Source of the DNA: Eubacteriales bacterium
GTDB lineage: Bacteria; Bacillota; Clostridia; Lachnospirales; Lachnospiraceae
Assembly (NCBI GenBank): GCA_030524175.1
Contig: JAUNHC010000043.1
Coordinates: 1 to 43,784, forward strand
Length of the DNA stretch: 43,784 nucleotides
Direction of reading: 5' to 3'
Shown here: piece by piece, positions 8,377 to 36,462 of the stretch
How the letters are laid out: each line of letters begins with the position of its first letter
Numbering within the stretch: position 1 is the stretch's first letter
Made by a program: the position numbers and the translations under genes
Notes under the pieces: generated by a model
The model's database searches: none
Seen by the model: the letters and a program-made list of their open reading frames with translations, nothing else
Told to the model about the DNA's origin: nothing

Positions 8377-8485
8377 GTACCTATGTATGCGAAGCCCTAA
8401 AAGCAGGAGACGGGTAATGCAGTGATAGGGCCTGTAGGATGCAGGATACTTGCAAATGATAAACAAATGGGAGGGGGAATATGTT

Positions 8486-9892
8486 ATGAGTGACAATACC
8501 CAAGTCACAATCAAAAAAAACGTACCATGGATGTTTTTCACTGCTTACTTTACAAATCAGATTGGTTCTGCTCTCACCATGCTTTTTCTGACAGTCTTTA
8601 TCACAGAGTATATGGGCATTTCGCCTGCACTCATGGCTGTCAGCCTGACAGCGGCCCGAATCGCGGATCTTGTCGTTTCACTTTTCGCAGGAGCCATCGT
8701 CCAGAAGACAAATATGCGCTTTGGACAATTCCGTTCCTGGCTGGTGATCATCATGCCTATTGTCCAGGTTGCTACTTTCCTGATCTTTGTGAACCCTGAT
8801 ATCGGTACAACAGGAAAGGCAGTCCTGATCGGTATCGCGTATTTCTTTACAAGTGCTCCAATGAATATTTTCGTAGTTGTACACAATTCACTTATGGCCA
8901 AAATTTCAGGCCCCAATATGGCAAACAGGATGGCAATAACGCCCAGGCTCGTTCAGGGAATACAGCTGGGAAATATTGTAGCATCTATGATCACCCTTCC
9001 TCTTGTACAGTTCTTTGGCGGAAGTGAAATGACAAAGGGATTTCCTGTGGTCGCTGTATTGTTTGGCGTGATAGCTCTCGGCGGACAGATCCTGATGTTT
9101 ATAGGAACTAAAGATTATGATATTTATAACCCAAATCTTAAAAAGGTGGAAGGCAGTACCCAGTCGGTAAAGCTGACTGCAATGTACGGCGAAACTCTGA
9201 AAAACGGCCAGCTCTGGATACTGCTCATAACAGACATCCTGCGCCAGACATCAGTATTTGTACTTTCCGGCATGTTGGGGTATTTCTTTACCTTTGCAGT
9301 AGGTGACTTTACTATGATGAGTAAAGGCCTTTTGATCAACAGCTTAGCTGCCTGCGCAGGAGCCTTCTTTGTAGGTCCCTACATAGCACGGAGGATCGGA
9401 AAGAAGAATTCCAGTATACTTTCTGCAGGTATAGCTTGTATTGCTTATCTGATTCTTGCTTTCTTTGCAAAAGACAACTGGATCATCTATATAAGCTGTA
9501 CTGCATTTGCAGCGCTGGGCCTCTCTGTGGTGGGCTCTGTGGGCATTAATCTTTATCTGGATGCCGGTGAATACCAGTTCTACAAGACAGGCAAGGATAA
9601 CCGTCCTTTTGTTATGTCACTGCAGACAGTACCTATGAAGGTGGGGATGACACTTTCCGGTTCTATTGTAGCTGCGATCCTTTATGAGGCGGGCTACGTT
9701 CAGCATGAAGGGGCCGCCGCAACTATGTCCGACCCGCTGCGTATGGTATTCCTCACCGGTATACTCGTAGCCATCTTGTATGGTCTGTCAGCAATACTGG
9801 TGTCAACATTTAAGATAAATGAAGAAAAGTCTAAGGAATATGCAGCCGAAAATGACCGCACACTAAAGGACCGCATGGAGAAGCGGCCGTAG
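8486..9892 (+). CDS. GPH-type MFS cation symporter
   Basis: 468 residues from ATG 8486, chosen because GGGAGGGGG (8469-8477) is 8 bases upstream; an earlier in-frame ATG at 8450 has no such site. About 12 hydrophobic segments are visible. The N-terminal AYFTNQIGSAL, the loop RFGQFRSWL after segment 2, and HNSLMAKI are typical of the glycoside-pentoside-hexuronide:cation symporter family, which imports sugars or related organic anions with Na+ or H+. The substrate cannot be read from sequence. It lies 24 bases before a UroD-superfamily gene and was probably transcribed with it, suggesting import of a compound that the second enzyme processes. Confidence 0.8.
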   Translation: MSDNTQVTIKKNVPWMFFTAYFTNQIGSALTMLFLTVFITEYMGISPALMAVSLTAARIADLVVSLFAGAIVQKTNMRFGQFRSWLVIIMPIVQVATFLIFVNPDIGTTGKAVLIGIAYFFTSAPMNIFVVVHNSLMAKISGPNMANRMAITPRLVQGIQLGNIVASMITLPLVQFFGGSEMTKGFPVVAVLFGVIALGGQILMFIGTKDYDIYNPNLKKVEGSTQSVKLTAMYGETLKNGQLWILLITDILRQTSVFVLSGMLGYFFTFAVGDFTMMSKGLLINSLAACAGAFFVGPYIARRIGKKNSSILSAGIACIAYLILAFFAKDNWIIYISCTAFAALGLSVVGSVGINLYLDAGEYQFYKTGKDNRPFVMSLQTVPMKVGMTLSGSIVAAILYEAGYVQHEGAAATMSDPLRMVFLTGILVAILYGLSAILVSTFKINEEKSKEYAAENDRTLKDRMEKRP

Positions 9893-9916: not shown

Positions 9917-10993
9917 ATGTCAGAAAGAATATACAATGGAATGCTGCCCTTAATGATCGATATGGTGTCTGCCACTGCCGGACCGGAGGTGGGCCAGATG
10001 CTGAAAAATGCACCTCTTGGCACAAAGCCATATAATCCTGATCTGCCCTGTTCCCCCCGGGAGAACATGAAACTCCTGCTGGAACACAAGATTCCTAAAT
10101 ATCTGCCCATATCAGGTGATACATATCCGATCACCCCGGATATTGTATGCGAGCGATCCTATGACAATAAGACAGGGCTTGACTGGTTCGGATGTAAATG
10201 GAGTTATGAGCCGGGCATAGGAGCCACTATCGTAAAACCAGGTGACGAGATGCTGGACTCTATAGAAGGCTGGCAGAATAAGATAACATTTCCGGATATA
10301 GATGCCTTGGACTGGGAAGAGTGTGCTCAGGGTATTGCTAAATACTATGATGACAACAGGATGTCTGACTGGTGGTTTCAGGTGGGCCTCTTTGAGCGAC
10401 TCCACTCTCTGCTTGGAATGCAGACTGCCCTGGAGTCCCTGATGATTGACGAGGACGAGGTTGCTGAGTTTTTTGACGCTTTGACAGAACATAAGATTCG
10501 TGTCATCAGAAAGCTGACCAGTCATTTCCGTGTGGAGATGATCTGCTACCACGATGACTGGGGCTATAATAAAGACGGATTCATACCCCCTGAGATTTTT
10601 GAACGCCTGATCGCACCTAACTTGAAGAAAATCGTTAGGGCAGTGCATGAAGGAGGCGCTTATTTTAACATGCATTCCGACGGACGTATAGAGCGTTATA
10701 TTCCATATATGATCGAGGCAGGAGTAGACATGTGGAATCCGGCACAGGCCGTAAATGACCTGGCTGCGATCAAACGTGAGTACGGCAGCCGCCTTGTACT
10801 GAACGGCGGTATGGATGAGGGCTGGACAAATGATCCTGCCGCAGACGAAGAAAAGCTGCGGGCTTATGTCCGGGATAAAGTGGATCTTCTGGGGGCAGGA
10901 GGCGGTTACTTGGCAAGCCCGGCAACTTTCAACGGGCGGAACAAGGCGATCATGACAGACGAACTGCGTAAATATGGAAGACATTTTTATTAA
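9917..10993 (+). CDS. Uroporphyrinogen decarboxylase-superfamily protein (methyltransferase-like)
   Basis: 358 residues with the (beta/alpha)8 pattern of the UroD/MtaA/CmuA superfamily. ATG 9917 follows AAAGGAGG. True heme-pathway UroD features are not evident and no heme genes are nearby. Methylcobamide:CoM methyltransferases in this group bind zinc through a His-x-Cys motif; here the corresponding site appears to be H253 in MHSDG, with Ser where Cys would stand, so zinc binding and methyl transfer are uncertain. C-terminal landmarks are VDMWNPAQ, NGGMDEG and LGAGGGYLASP. The partner symporter suggests catabolism of an imported small molecule such as a methylated or aromatic compound. No corrinoid protein is present in the window. 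Substrate unknown. Confidence 0.7.
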   Translation: MSERIYNGMLPLMIDMVSATAGPEVGQMLKNAPLGTKPYNPDLPCSPRENMKLLLEHKIPKYLPISGDTYPITPDIVCERSYDNKTGLDWFGCKWSYEPGIGATIVKPGDEMLDSIEGWQNKITFPDIDALDWEECAQGIAKYYDDNRMSDWWFQVGLFERLHSLLGMQTALESLMIDEDEVAEFFDALTEHKIRVIRKLTSHFRVEMICYHDDWGYNKDGFIPPEIFERLIAPNLKKIVRAVHEGGAYFNMHSDGRIERYIPYMIEAGVDMWNPAQAVNDLAAIKREYGSRLVLNGGMDEGWTNDPAADEEKLRAYVRDKVDLLGAGGGYLASPATFNGRNKAIMTDELRKYGRHFY

Positions 10994-29616: not shown

Positions 29617-30372
29617 ATGAAGTTAGTCTCATGGAATGTAAACGGCATTCGTGCCTGCCTTACCAAAGGATTTGAAGAGCGGTTTAAAGAGTTGGATGCG
29701 GATATTTTCTGCCTGCAGGAAACAAAATGTCAGGAAGGCCAGGTGGATCTTCAGCTTCCCGGCTATCACCAGTATTGGAATTATGCCAACAGGCGCGGTT
29801 ATTCAGGAACGGCAGTCTTCACAAAGCAGGAGCCGATAGATGTATCTTATGGGATAGGAATAGAAGAGCACGACAAAGAAGGCCGTGTGATCACCTTAGA
29901 GTTCAATGATTTTTACATGGTTACCGTCTATACACCTAATTCACAGAGCGAGCTTAAAAGGCTGTCCTACCGCATGGACTGGGAGCGGGATTTTCTGGAA
30001 TATCTCATCAGGCTGGACGAGAAGAAACCGGTGATCTGCTGCGGTGATCTGAACGTGGCCCATCAGGAGATTGATTTGAAAAATCCAAAGACCAACCGTA
30101 AAAACGCAGGTTTCACCGATGAGGAACGTGCCTGCTTTACAAAAGTGCTGGAAAGCGGTTTTATTGATACATTCAGATACTTTTATCCGGATATGGAAGG
30201 AGTGTACTCCTGGTGGTCCTACCGTTTCCGCGCAAGAGAGAAAAACGCAGGGTGGAGGATTGATTATTTTATCGTTTCTCCGTCTCTGAAGGACAAGCTT
30301 GAGGATGCAAAGATCCATACGGATATTATGGGCTCCGATCACTGCCCTGTTGAACTTGACATCAAAGCATAG
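29617..30372 (+). CDS. exoA: Exodeoxyribonuclease III / AP endonuclease
   Basis: 251 residues, ribosome binding site AGAGGAG. It cleaves abasic sites in DNA during base-excision repair and has 3'-5' exonuclease and phosphatase activities. Exo III family residues: N7 (SWNVNG), metal ligand E35 (LQETKC), the [12 protein letters not shown] loop with catalytic Asp/Asn, [12 protein letters not shown], and H242 in [11 protein letters not shown]. Length is typical. It is the first gene after the tandem leader element and 30 bases before the GH13-like gene. Confidence 0.95.
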
Positions 30373-30402
30373 GCTGAATAAGTATGATAAGGAGGGCTTT
30401 CT

Positions 30403-32256
30403 ATGGCAAGCCATAAGATTACTCGGGTGGAACCCGGTTATCCGCTGATACTTGGGGCGAATAAATTGATAAACGGTTATAATTTTACAGTTGAGGTTCC
30501 TGAGGAGTCGGAAGCCTCACTGCTTCTTTACCGCAAAAAAGCAAAAACACCAACGCAAGAAATACCTTTCACGGAAGAACATAGAACAGGGCGGATCTGT
30601 TCTTTTTCCCTCCCTGAATTTACGCCCGAGGAATATGAATACAATTATTGTATTGACGGGAAGGTTTACCCGGATCCATGTGCCTATAGTATCCGGGGCA
30701 GGGATAAGTTCGGCGAGACAATGGACGGTGATCTCCACAAAATCCGCTGCGGATTTCTGCCGGAGGTACGTTATGATTGGGAGGATGACAAGTTTCCGGA
30801 GATTTCTTACAAGGATATGATTTTGTATAAGCTTCATGTAAGAGGCTATACGAAGCTTAATAAAGAACTGGGAAACAGAAAGGGAACATTCAGCGGACTG
30901 ATTGAAATGATTCCTTACTGGAAGAAATTGGGGATAAATGCAGTTGAGCTGATGCCAGCCTATGAATTTATGGAAGTGCCGGTCATAGAACCGGACAGCG
31001 GTTTTATTTCTGAGCGCAGGCAGGAAGGAAAAGTAAATTACTGGGGCTATATACCAGGATACTATTTTACCCCGAAACGTTCTTATTGTGCCACAAGAGA
31101 ACCGGAAACAGAATTCAGAAATTTTGTCAAGGAGCTTCATAAATCCGGGATAGAGTGCATTATGGAAATATATTTTCCAAAGGAGATCAGTCCGTTTCTC
31201 ACATTAAGGGTTCTTCATTTCTGGAAACTGTATTACCATGTGGATGGATTCCATCTTCTCGGGGAGGGAGCAGCTTTAGACCTGATATTAAAGGATGGCT
31301 TATTATCACGGACAAAGCTTATGGTGCCTGGCTTTAACCCTTATGATATTTATCACGGGAAAACACCAAAGCACCGTAACCTGGCTGAATATAATATGGG
31401 CTTTCTCCAGGATATGAGACGTTTTCTCAAGAGCGATGAGGATGCAGTGGAGGGAGCCGCTTATCGTATCAAGCATAACCCTGATACCCATGCAGTCATT
31501 AACTATATAGCCTGTCAGGATGGTTTTACCCTCAATGACATGGTTACTTATAATTATAAACATAATGAAGGGAATATGGAGGATAATCAGGATGGCAGCA
31601 GCTATAATTATTCCTGGAACTGTGGCGTGGAAGGTCCGAGCCGGAAAGTGATCATCCGCCAGATACGCGAACGTCAGATGAGAAATGCCTTCCTTATGGT
31701 GCTTCTGAGCCAAGGTGTGCCTATGATTTATGGCGGAGATGAGATTGCCAATTCACAGGCCGGGAATAATAATGCCTATTGCCAGGACAATCCTGTGGGC
31801 TGGGTAGACTGGAAAGGACTGAAAAAGAACGAGGGACTGTTACGTTTTGTCCGAGAGGCCATAGCTTTTCGCCGGGAGCATCCCATTCTTCACACGGAGA
31901 AGGAACTGAAAGGAACCGATTATAAAACAAAAGGATTTCCAGATATTTCCTTCCATGGAGAACGTGCATGGTACTGTACTTATGATAATACCTGCAGGCT
32001 GCTGGGAGTTATGTACTGCGGTGCCTATGCAAAAAAGGAAAACGGAGAGCCTGATGATTTTATCTATATGGCATATAATTTCCATTGGGAGAGCAGGGAG
32101 ATCGCGCTTCCCAACCTGCCGGACGGACTGAAATGGAAGAAGGCGGCAGACACTGGAGATTTGGGCAGTGACAGCTTCTTCTGCCAGCAGGAGGAGGAAC
32201 ATACAAAATCTATTGAAATAGGCCCGCGCACCATTGTTGTACTGCTGGCAAAATAG
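30403..32256 (+). CDS. GlgX/isoamylase-like GH13 protein lacking catalytic residues (probable pseudoenzyme)
   Basis: 617 residues, ATG 30403 behind AAGGAGGGC. An N-terminal CBM48-like beta domain (about 15-105; LILGANKLINGYNF) precedes a GH13 barrel with debranching-enzyme landmarks KLHVRGYTK, INAVELMPAYEF, NYWGYIPGYYFTP, YKHNEGNMEDNQDG and VPMIYGGDE. All four catalytic motifs are changed. Motif I, usually DVVYNH, is EIYFPK (255-260). Motif II, FRFD with the nucleophile Asp, is FHLL (283-286). The general-acid AEPW region is VPGFNP (308-313). Motif IV AHD is CQD (371-373), only Asp kept. The frame is intact, so a non-catalytic role such as glucan binding or partner regulation is likely, as for the plant isoamylase subunit ISA2. 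It sits between exoA and DUF5662. Confidence 0.85.
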   Translation: MASHKITRVEPGYPLILGANKLINGYNFTVEVPEESEASLLLYRKKAKTPTQEIPFTEEHRTGRICSFSLPEFTPEEYEYNYCIDGKVYPDPCAYSIRGRDKFGETMDGDLHKIRCGFLPEVRYDWEDDKFPEISYKDMILYKLHVRGYTKLNKELGNRKGTFSGLIEMIPYWKKLGINAVELMPAYEFMEVPVIEPDSGFISERRQEGKVNYWGYIPGYYFTPKRSYCATREPETEFRNFVKELHKSGIECIMEIYFPKEISPFLTLRVLHFWKLYYHVDGFHLLGEGAALDLILKDGLLSRTKLMVPGFNPYDIYHGKTPKHRNLAEYNMGFLQDMRRFLKSDEDAVEGAAYRIKHNPDTHAVINYIACQDGFTLNDMVTYNYKHNEGNMEDNQDGSSYNYSWNCGVEGPSRKVIIRQIRERQMRNAFLMVLLSQGVPMIYGGDEIANSQAGNNNAYCQDNPVGWVDWKGLKKNEGLLRFVREAIAFRREHPILHTEKELKGTDYKTKGFPDISFHGERAWYCTYDNTCRLLGVMYCGAYAKKENGEPDDFIYMAYNFHWESREIALPNLPDGLKWKKAADTGDLGSDSFFCQQEEEHTKSIEIGPRTIVVLLAK

Positions 32257-32269
32257 GAGGTCAGAAAAA

Positions 32270-32839
32270 ATGCACCCATGGCTTCATTTTAGAACAATCA
32301 CCAAACATAAGCTGATGGTCATGCAGTATTGTTTCCGTGTGGGACTGTACAAGCAGGGTCTGCTCCATGATATGTCCAAATACTCACCCACTGAGTTTCT
32401 TGTGGGATGTAAGTATTATCAGGGAGACAGAAGCCCGAACAATGCGGAGAGGGAGGATATCGGGGTGTCCACCTCCTGGCTCCACCATAAAGGCCGTAAC
32501 CGGCATCACTTTGAACATTGGGTGGATTACTCCCTGGATGATAAGTATGTGATCATGGGGGCAAAAATGCCCAGAAGATATGTGGCGGAAATGGTGATGG
32601 ACAGGATCAGTGCATCCCGCACATATCTGGGAGACGCCTACAATAACAGGGAGCCGCTGAAGTACTTCCTGAAAAGTAAAGAAAAACTGTGGTTCATCCA
32701 CCCTCAGACAAAAAAAGAACTGGAGGGGCTTCTCAGGATACTCCATGACCACGGGGAAGACAAAACCTTGTGGTATATCAAGCATGTATACCTAAAGAAA
32801 AATAAGAGAAAATCCGCCATAAAAAGAAAAATAAGATGA
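32270..32839 (+). CDS. DUF5662-type protein with HD-like motif
   Basis: 189 residues from ATG 32270, preceded by AGGAGG, 13 bases after the GH13-like gene; the open frame extends upstream only within that gene. The N-terminal part has LLHDMSKYSPTEF (H33-D34) and a His cluster WLHHKGRNRHHFEHW (H72, H73, H79, H80, H83), reminiscent of HD-domain metal phosphohydrolases, although the exact ligand set is not confirmed. The C-terminus is very basic. I believe it belongs to DUF5662, whose function is undefined. A strong terminator follows, so exoA, the GH13-like gene and this gene make one operon. Confidence 0.7.
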   Translation: MHPWLHFRTITKHKLMVMQYCFRVGLYKQGLLHDMSKYSPTEFLVGCKYYQGDRSPNNAEREDIGVSTSWLHHKGRNRHHFEHWVDYSLDDKYVIMGAKMPRRYVAEMVMDRISASRTYLGDAYNNREPLKYFLKSKEKLWFIHPQTKKELEGLLRILHDHGEDKTLWYIKHVYLKKNKRKSAIKRKIR

Positions 32840-35874: not shown

Positions 35875-36462
35875 ATGATGGATACACCGACAATAGCGGC
35901 TTATTACAGGGAGCATGATCCCATGAAGAGAAAAGCTTTGCTTGAAGAAGCGATTCAGGCAGGAGATGATCCCCAGGGAAATGCGATCCGCAAGGAAATT
36001 TGGGAAATACGCTACCACGGTACTTCCGAGAACGGATCAGGGTCACCGGCAGATGGCTATCTGGGATTGTGGATGGCATTGGAGTTTAACAGGGATGCAG
36101 CCAGGAAGCTTTTCGGGATCAAGGGAGCGCGTAAAGAGATAATGAAGCATCTGGATAAATTGAAATTCAGAGAGCTTGCGGAGAAAGGCTCTGAGTATGA
36201 GGAGCTTCTTTACCGTGAATGCTGCCATTTAGTGAAGCTGTATATAGAGCTTTGTGAGAAAGACAGGAATTATAATACTGTGCTCTGCGGTATTATGAAC
36301 ATGAGCAGCGATAAATCCAAGGCGAAACTGCAGAAGGATATCTTTGAGACAGCAGTGGCGCTGCCGCCGTCCATAAAGATGGAAGAGGAGCTTGGAATTA
36401 TCACCAGAGCAGCCAGAGAAATGTACGAGGTACATTTTCCGGGTGAGGGAGGACTGGCGTAA
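35875..36462 (+). CDS. Conserved-looking helical hypothetical protein
   Basis: 195 residues. ATG 35875 or ATG 35878, both behind AGAGAGGA. Mostly charged, helical and cytoplasmic, without signal peptide or membrane segments. Segments such as DPMKRKALLEEAIQAGDDP and GYLGLWMALEFNRDAARKLFG recall short helical repeat domains of Lachnospiraceae proteins labelled DUF6553, but I cannot confirm this family. No catalytic motif. It is 85 bases downstream of glf and 180 bases upstream of the M16 protease. Confidence 0.6.
   Translation: MMDTPTIAAYYREHDPMKRKALLEEAIQAGDDPQGNAIRKEIWEIRYHGTSENGSGSPADGYLGLWMALEFNRDAARKLFGIKGARKEIMKHLDKLKFRELAEKGSEYEELLYRECCHLVKLYIELCEKDRNYNTVLCGIMNMSSDKSKAKLQKDIFETAVALPPSIKMEEELGIITRAAREMYEVHFPGEGGLA

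Follow-up and report, generated by a model that had tools for sequence, protein, structure and literature searches.

A non-catalytic GlgX paralogue of the Lachnospiraceae that probably binds alpha-glucan

Background

What might a relative of the glycogen debranching enzyme GlgX do once the residues that carry out catalysis are gone? The question is raised by a gene found in a stretch of 43,784 nucleotides from a Eubacteriales bacterium placed in the Lachnospiraceae (assembly GCA_030524175.1, contig JAUNHC010000043.1), called here the window. We refer to the gene as dead glgX and to proteins of the same kind as the dead type, a family of which we found no published description in the open-access literature.

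Inactive companions of glycogen enzymes have precedents. GlgD is an inactive paralogue of GlgC, and in this case both the enzyme and the fold differ from the GlgX type. In some bacteria GlgD is the regulatory subunit for GlgC, and its likeness to the protein described here would be that of a regulatory companion within the glycogen pathway (PMC10395257). Closer in sequence family is plant ISA2, which acts with ISA1 (PMC12892837, PMC12510319), and the selective reason for a non-catalytic plant isoamylase is described in the latter source as not understood. An apparently independent bacterial case, in which the active enzyme is sometimes absent, would make a non-catalytic role testable alone. 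It also concerns annotation. Two glgX homologues are described for Blautia obeum (PMC10395257), and homology-based GlgX counts such as this one may include a protein unable to debranch.

Results and discussion

The former catalytic site

The window protein is read in one intact frame preceded by a ribosome binding site (Table 1), as a previous sequence-only reading of this DNA had stated. Its top NCBIfam model is GlgX TIGR02100, with 326.6 bits for a curated cut-off of 640.9. This cut-off proves little alone because the genuine GlgX of the window genome, whose triad is intact, also misses it narrowly (635.6 bits), and most canonical GlgX matches in the window's genus likewise stay below it. 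PF00128 was matched above the Pfam cut-off (27.2 bits, cut-off 22), and ISOA1-3_C, Isoamylase_C and CBM48 were all below theirs (for the N-terminal CBM48, 16.7 bits vs 22.4). By sequence, the closest proteins of known structure are 2vnc (GlgX/TreX), isoamylase 1 and the Streptomyces GlgX 7u39, and the homology with GlgX/TreX (GH13_11) extends over most of the length of the window protein.

We read the motifs against the canonical GlgX of the window genome (G000:C81), which has the Asp-Glu-Asp triad intact. The sequence-only reading had proposed that the nucleophile Asp is replaced by Leu at 286, that the acid region reads VPGFNP, that motif I reads EIYFPK, and that all the catalytic positions are lost together. 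The alignment bears out the first three. GFRFDLA of GlgX aligns with GFHL followed by a gap, and L286 occupies the site where GFRxD would put the nucleophile; MVPGFN is aligned to IAEAWD; and EIYFPK is aligned to DVVFNH, with the Asp, the Asn and the His of motif I all lost. The fourth was right for the nucleophile, the acid, motif I and the motif IV His (CQDGF in the window protein vs CHDGF in the canonical GlgX) but overstated, as the motif IV Asp is present as D373, the only member of the triad that survives. D373 corresponds to the motif IV Asp450 of Streptomyces GlgX, an enzyme with three catalytic residues of which Asp450 is one (PMC9530166). Furthermore, the list of losses, correct in the main ones, omitted two deletions. 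The spacing from motif I to motif II is 27 residues vs a median of 71, and from motif II to motif III 24 residues vs 38, indicating that the loops after motifs I and II have been deleted; about 58 loop residues are absent between motifs I and III. The window protein differs from GlgX/TreX in its two shortened loops and in the absence of nucleophile, acid and motif I His, and we consider it very probable that glycosidase activity by the GH13 mechanism is absent.

Table 1 Features of the dead glgX locus in the window
Feature	Coordinates	Strand	Remarks
Exodeoxyribonuclease III gene (xth)	29617..30372	+	30 nt upstream of dead glgX
Shine-Dalgarno-like AGGAGGG	30390..30396	+	6 nt spacing to the ATG
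Dead GlgX (GH13_11) paralogue gene	30403..32256	+	617 aa, ATG start, zero internal stops
Former motif I, EIYFPK (residues 255-260)	31165..31182	+	Replaces DVVFNH; from alignment
Former motif II, GFHLL (282-286)	31246..31260	+	Replaces GFRFD, nucleophile absent; from alignment
Former motif III, LMVPGFNP (306-313)	31318..31341	+	Replaces LIAEAWDA, acid absent; from alignment
Former motif IV, CQD (371-373)	31513..31521	+	His lost, Asp373 present; from alignment
Retained stretch after motif IV, HNEGNMEDNQDGSSYNYSWNCGVEG (387-411)	31561..31635	+	From alignment; E393 = Glu470 of Streptomyces GlgX
Retained stretch GNNNAYCQDN (454-463)	31762..31791	+	N457/Y459 = Asn534/Tyr536 of Streptomyces GlgX
DUF5662 gene from its ATG	32270..32839	+	13 nt downstream of dead glgX

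Descent and distribution of the dead type

Among 227 distinct homologues, 144 lack the nucleophile/acid pair (dead type) and 83 have it (canonical). The labels were set from these two alignment columns, so that the figures are a sorting and not a test, and the dead-type alignment near the columns is uncertain because of gaps. The nucleophile column is occupied in two dead-type rows, L181 and L229, in one case by an N and in the other by a D without the acid. A score threshold separating both types was tried and discarded: the profile, built from 20 dead-type rows, scored canonical rows at up to 626.5 bits and dead-type rows as low as 545.6. As the scores overlap, types were assigned by motif.

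The test of this sorting is whether the two labels separate in a tree. A tree of 53 of the 144 dead-type and 53 of the 83 canonical rows, obtained by a quick search with SH-aLRT values and without bootstrap, placed both sets on opposite sides of one branch (SH-aLRT 100), and the same one-branch separation was found for these rows after removing the block of motifs I to IV. In a tree rooted with 5 type I pullulanase rows, which also held 25 dead-type and 53 canonical rows (short search without bootstrap, with four long-branch dead-type rows removed beforehand), the dead-type rows grouped inside GlgX (SH-aLRT 100), next to a group of GlgX sequences that come mostly from Firmicutes. A single origin of the dead type within GlgX would fit this tree, which is compatible with it and does not prove it. 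Judging from the nesting on the Firmicutes side, in trees without plant sequences, the derivation was apparently separate from that of ISA2; plant ISA has been traced to Chlamydiae (PMC12510319).

The window protein was used to search 200 genomes of the family Lachnospiraceae and 164 gave a match (E <= 1e-20), a figure that may include genomes with a canonical GlgX match alone. The best match was fetched from 93 of them, taken in listed order, and was of the dead type in all 93, which together with the window's own makes 94 family genomes with a confirmed dead type. In each of the 93 the gene is one frame without inner stops, with one of them ending at a contig edge. Within the window's genus the protein was matched in 62 of 64 genomes, including all 34 of good quality, and the dead type was found in the 32 fetched besides the window, the remaining 29 of the 62 being counted by match and not by motif.

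Among the best 80 loci of a further search for relatives, with a capped list, 19 were of the dead type. Fifteen are labelled Lachnospiraceae or a genus placed there (two placements from origin labels, the rest from the title or assumed), and the other four are labelled Clostridia, Clostridiales, Eubacterium and an unplaced bacterium. A survey of 291 genomes of the class (E <= 1e-60) gave 14 matches, of which eight, each at full length, fall within this family and six outside it. Four of these six were fetched and all have intact canonical motifs, and G520 and G525, also outside the family, gave two-piece matches resembling those of canonical GlgX. No dead type was found outside the Lachnospiraceae family among the 291 class genomes; the non-matching genomes listed include two of the same family, and 257 more lie beyond those listed. 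The dead type is one group inside GlgX, seen here in the Lachnospiraceae-type family alone.

Retained positions and glucan contacts

Positions with the same residue in at least 98% of the 83 canonical GlgX were considered invariant, and there are 94 of them. In the dead type 44 are kept (at least 90%), 12 are intermediate and 38 are lost. The losses are concentrated between motifs I and IV (34 positions), with two more at motif IV and two before motif I. From motif IV to just beyond the GNNN loop 26 of 31 invariant positions are kept at 90% or more (Fisher p = 4e-14 for the clustering of kept and lost positions, which are non-independent).

The contacts with the substrate have been described for Streptomyces GlgX and are W222, Y224, H271, D342, E378, W380 and H449 for the -1 sugar and R212, E470, N534 and Y536 for other, outer sugars (PMC9530166). 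We mapped them from the S. venezuelae enzyme via one alignment to 7u39, taking the chain numbering as the paper numbering +3, judged from the motif IV His-Asp. Five of the 11 are kept in the window protein: of the seven -1 contacts, W214 and Y216, and of the four to outer sugars, E393, N457 and Y459. They are also well preserved across the 144 dead-type proteins: W222/W214 and N534/N457 in 143 each, Y536/Y459 in 133, and Y224/Y216 as Y in 130 and F in 14. E470/E393 is E in 142 of the 144 vs 45 of the 83 canonical proteins. R212 is lost in the dead type, and so are most of the -1 contacts, D342 among them (H271 kept in 1/144, W380 in 40/144 and H449 in 44/144, with an E at E378 in 16/144). Such a pattern of kept and lost positions is what would be expected for a glucan cleft without the catalytic centre, and the contacts kept in both sets make glucan binding more likely as far as residues can tell. 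W214, N457 and Y459 are invariant or nearly so in canonical GlgX also, and they may have been kept for a structural role instead of a glucan contact.

The reading that we prefer is that the window gene codes for a non-catalytic GlgX paralogue that is probably an alpha-glucan-binding protein of glycogen metabolism. The protein would grip branched alpha-glucan chains in the remaining cleft without cutting them and might take part in glycogen turnover as a scaffold holding glucan, a sensor, a regulatory subunit or a subunit presenting chains to an enzyme. This mode would resemble that of plant ISA2, the loss of activity being apparently independent. We also put forward, as a tentative extension, that the dead type could be a family-wide counterpart of ISA2, a dedicated non-catalytic glycogen reader that senses or organises the chains and perhaps signals to the adjacent DUF5662 protein.

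Glycogen genes in the same genomes

The ISA2 precedent, already invoked in the sequence-only reading, could be taken literally, with the dead protein as an obligate subunit that modulates canonical GlgX within a heteromer. In rice, debranching by ISA1 is enhanced by the attachment of ISA2 (PMC12892837), and the window genome does encode the canonical GlgX used above as reference. In two genomes GlgX and dead glgX are close to each other: in G126 (L230, G126:C6) they lie on one strand with a single ABC-F-like gene between them, and in G133 (L159, G133:C30) within 2 kb on opposite strands with two genes between. Against this, canonical GlgX was found in only 41 of the 64 genus genomes (matches > 565 bits), and 21 of the 62 that match the window protein have no canonical GlgX match. 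Eleven of these 21 are at least 90% complete, G213 and G261 being single contigs. The remaining ten have lower completeness, and in one of them, G252, a fragment at a contig edge might represent GlgX. Over the whole family canonical GlgX appeared in 58 of 200 genomes, two of them with fragments, vs the 94 with the dead type, which is thus present in more family genomes than GlgX and is the sole GlgX-type protein detected in some glycogen makers. Since GlgX is missing in 21 of 62 genus genomes, it is unlikely to be the only partner of the dead protein, and we give the obligate heteromer a low probability.

ISA2 remains a fair analogy in other respects. Both are non-catalytic GH13_11 paralogues, lineage-wide and faster-evolving than the active one (PMC12510319), and for the dead type the loss of the catalytic residues extends to 93/93 family and 32/32 genus genomes fetched. 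The analogy fails in that the window protein is bacterial, has shortened loops and sometimes lacks the active paralogue.

Debranching routes other than GlgX and pullulanase are possible in the genomes without GlgX. Type I pullulanase was above its cut-off in 11 of the 64 genus genomes, five of them among the 21, leaving 16 of the 21 with neither GlgX nor pullulanase by profiles. PF00128 gave 11 matches in G213 and 12 in each of G261 and G262. Of seven G261 proteins scanned, the nearest models were of phosphotrehalase type for three, maltodextrin-glucosidase type for two and trehalose synthase for one, and the seventh had no match at E <= 1e-60.

GlgA was considered as a functional clue and discarded. 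It is present in 62 of 64 genus genomes and 194 of 200 family genomes, and being nearly universal its co-occurrence with the dead type is uninformative. Of the 36 family genomes without a window-protein match 20 are listed, and 18 of these 20 have GlgA as well; therefore the dead protein is dispensable for glycogen synthesis.

Gene neighbourhood

Another explanation is that the fold has been re-used outside glucans, either as a protein-protein scaffold or in some role with the neighbours. In the window dead glgX is located between xth and the DUF5662 gene, with very short gaps (Table 1). The AGGAGG of the DUF5662 gene overlaps the stop of dead glgX and both genes are probably co-transcribed (as listed by the program, the DUF5662 ORF starts at a TTG, at 32234). 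We surveyed 91 loci, the window included, in which the same organism may recur. In 19 of them the first or second gene upstream is a same-strand member of the exonuclease III family. In 39 a DUF5662 gene is the first or second one downstream, also on the same strand, at a distance of -86 to +64 nt in 27 cases and of 569 to 780 nt in 12. Besides this arrangement, the conservation of K225, D506, D514 and Q437 in the dead type does not extend to canonical GlgX. But the best conserved positions include several that hold the glucan in GlgX, and the DUF5662 family, which has members in 167 of the 200 family genomes and in none of 14 control genomes, is present in some family genomes without a window-protein match, indicating that the two proteins are separable. 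For the same reason DUF5662 was rejected as a strict partner. We regard a role outside glucans as improbable and keep glucan binding as the preferred reading.

No paper naming DUF5662 was found in the open-access literature; the protein has an HD-like His/Asp pattern, read from its sequence, that may be a metal site. Among the other neighbours, an ABC-F-like gene lies at most four genes from the dead type in 42 of the 91 loci and a TraX-like gene is the next one downstream in 29 (both names read from sequence). Glycogen genes were not recognised in any of the 12 families inspected by sequence among the 16 commonest neighbour families. Neighbours are mostly housekeeping-looking, and the neighbourhood was set aside as a functional guide.

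Ten dead-type loci (L183, L189, L190, L192, L193, L197, L198, L199, L204 and L208) code for shorter proteins, their stop-to-stop frames spanning 568-614 aa, in which the former motif I is of PF type and in most cases VLEMPF. These ten loci and L211 share a neighbour family at most four genes away, and immediately upstream in 10 of the 11, which resembles a sugar-binding lipoprotein (name read from sequence). Elsewhere in the window, a DUF6553 protein is encoded at 35875-36462, and the product of 9917-10993 has a partial URO-D match (43.7 bits), beside a sugar-type MFS transporter at 8450-9892.

Acidic residues in the dead type

Catalytic residues might also have been relocated, leaving an active carbohydrate enzyme. 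In the dead type the column of the motif I Asp holds E or D in 128 of 144 proteins, and that of the motif IV Asp holds D in 59 and N in another 59. We looked for the catalytic Asp and Glu elsewhere in the protein, which the sequence-only reading had named as evidence against its own proposal, and no conserved replacement acid appeared at the motif positions of the dead type. D or E occupies 18 positions in more than 90% of the dead type, but at 13 of these positions about 80% or more of the canonical proteins have an acid too, and the clearly dead-type-specific acids E346 and D506 lie away from the former motifs. An E in the acid column together with the D of motif IV occurs in 6 of the 144 proteins, none of which has the nucleophile. 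Relocated catalysis was rejected on these grounds and is very improbable.

Selection

The sequence-only reading had taken the gene for a maintained pseudoenzyme and had put forward neutral dN/dS values among orthologs as evidence to the contrary. The values obtained are far from neutral, 0.053-0.224 in 27 genus pairs with dS <= 2 (NG86), which share genomes and hence are non-independent. The set leaves out pairs with dS > 2 or non-computable, including every pair of the window genome (the nearest relative of the window protein, in G214, has 77% identity and a dS of 2.7). For canonical GlgX in the same pairs dN/dS was 0.017-0.091 in 22 and four pairs gave no value; in one pair with very few changes GlgX had 0.138, above the 0.084 of the dead protein. 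Both proteins gave a value in 23 pairs, and in 22 of these the dN/dS of the dead protein exceeded that of GlgX by a factor of 1.7 to 4.1, indicating a weaker constraint. The dead protein is under strong purifying selection, weaker than that of GlgX. Together with the single group in the tree, the uninterrupted frames and the lack of a conserved replacement acid, dN/dS values of 0.05-0.22 uphold the proposal of a maintained pseudoenzyme. A recent pseudogene or an assembly error, suggested by the loss of catalytic residues, has a negligible probability given the open frame with its ribosome-binding site, the frames kept in 93/93 genomes and across genera, and a dN/dS far below 1. The pair G261/G262, both without GlgX, gave a dN/dS of 0.059 for the dead protein.
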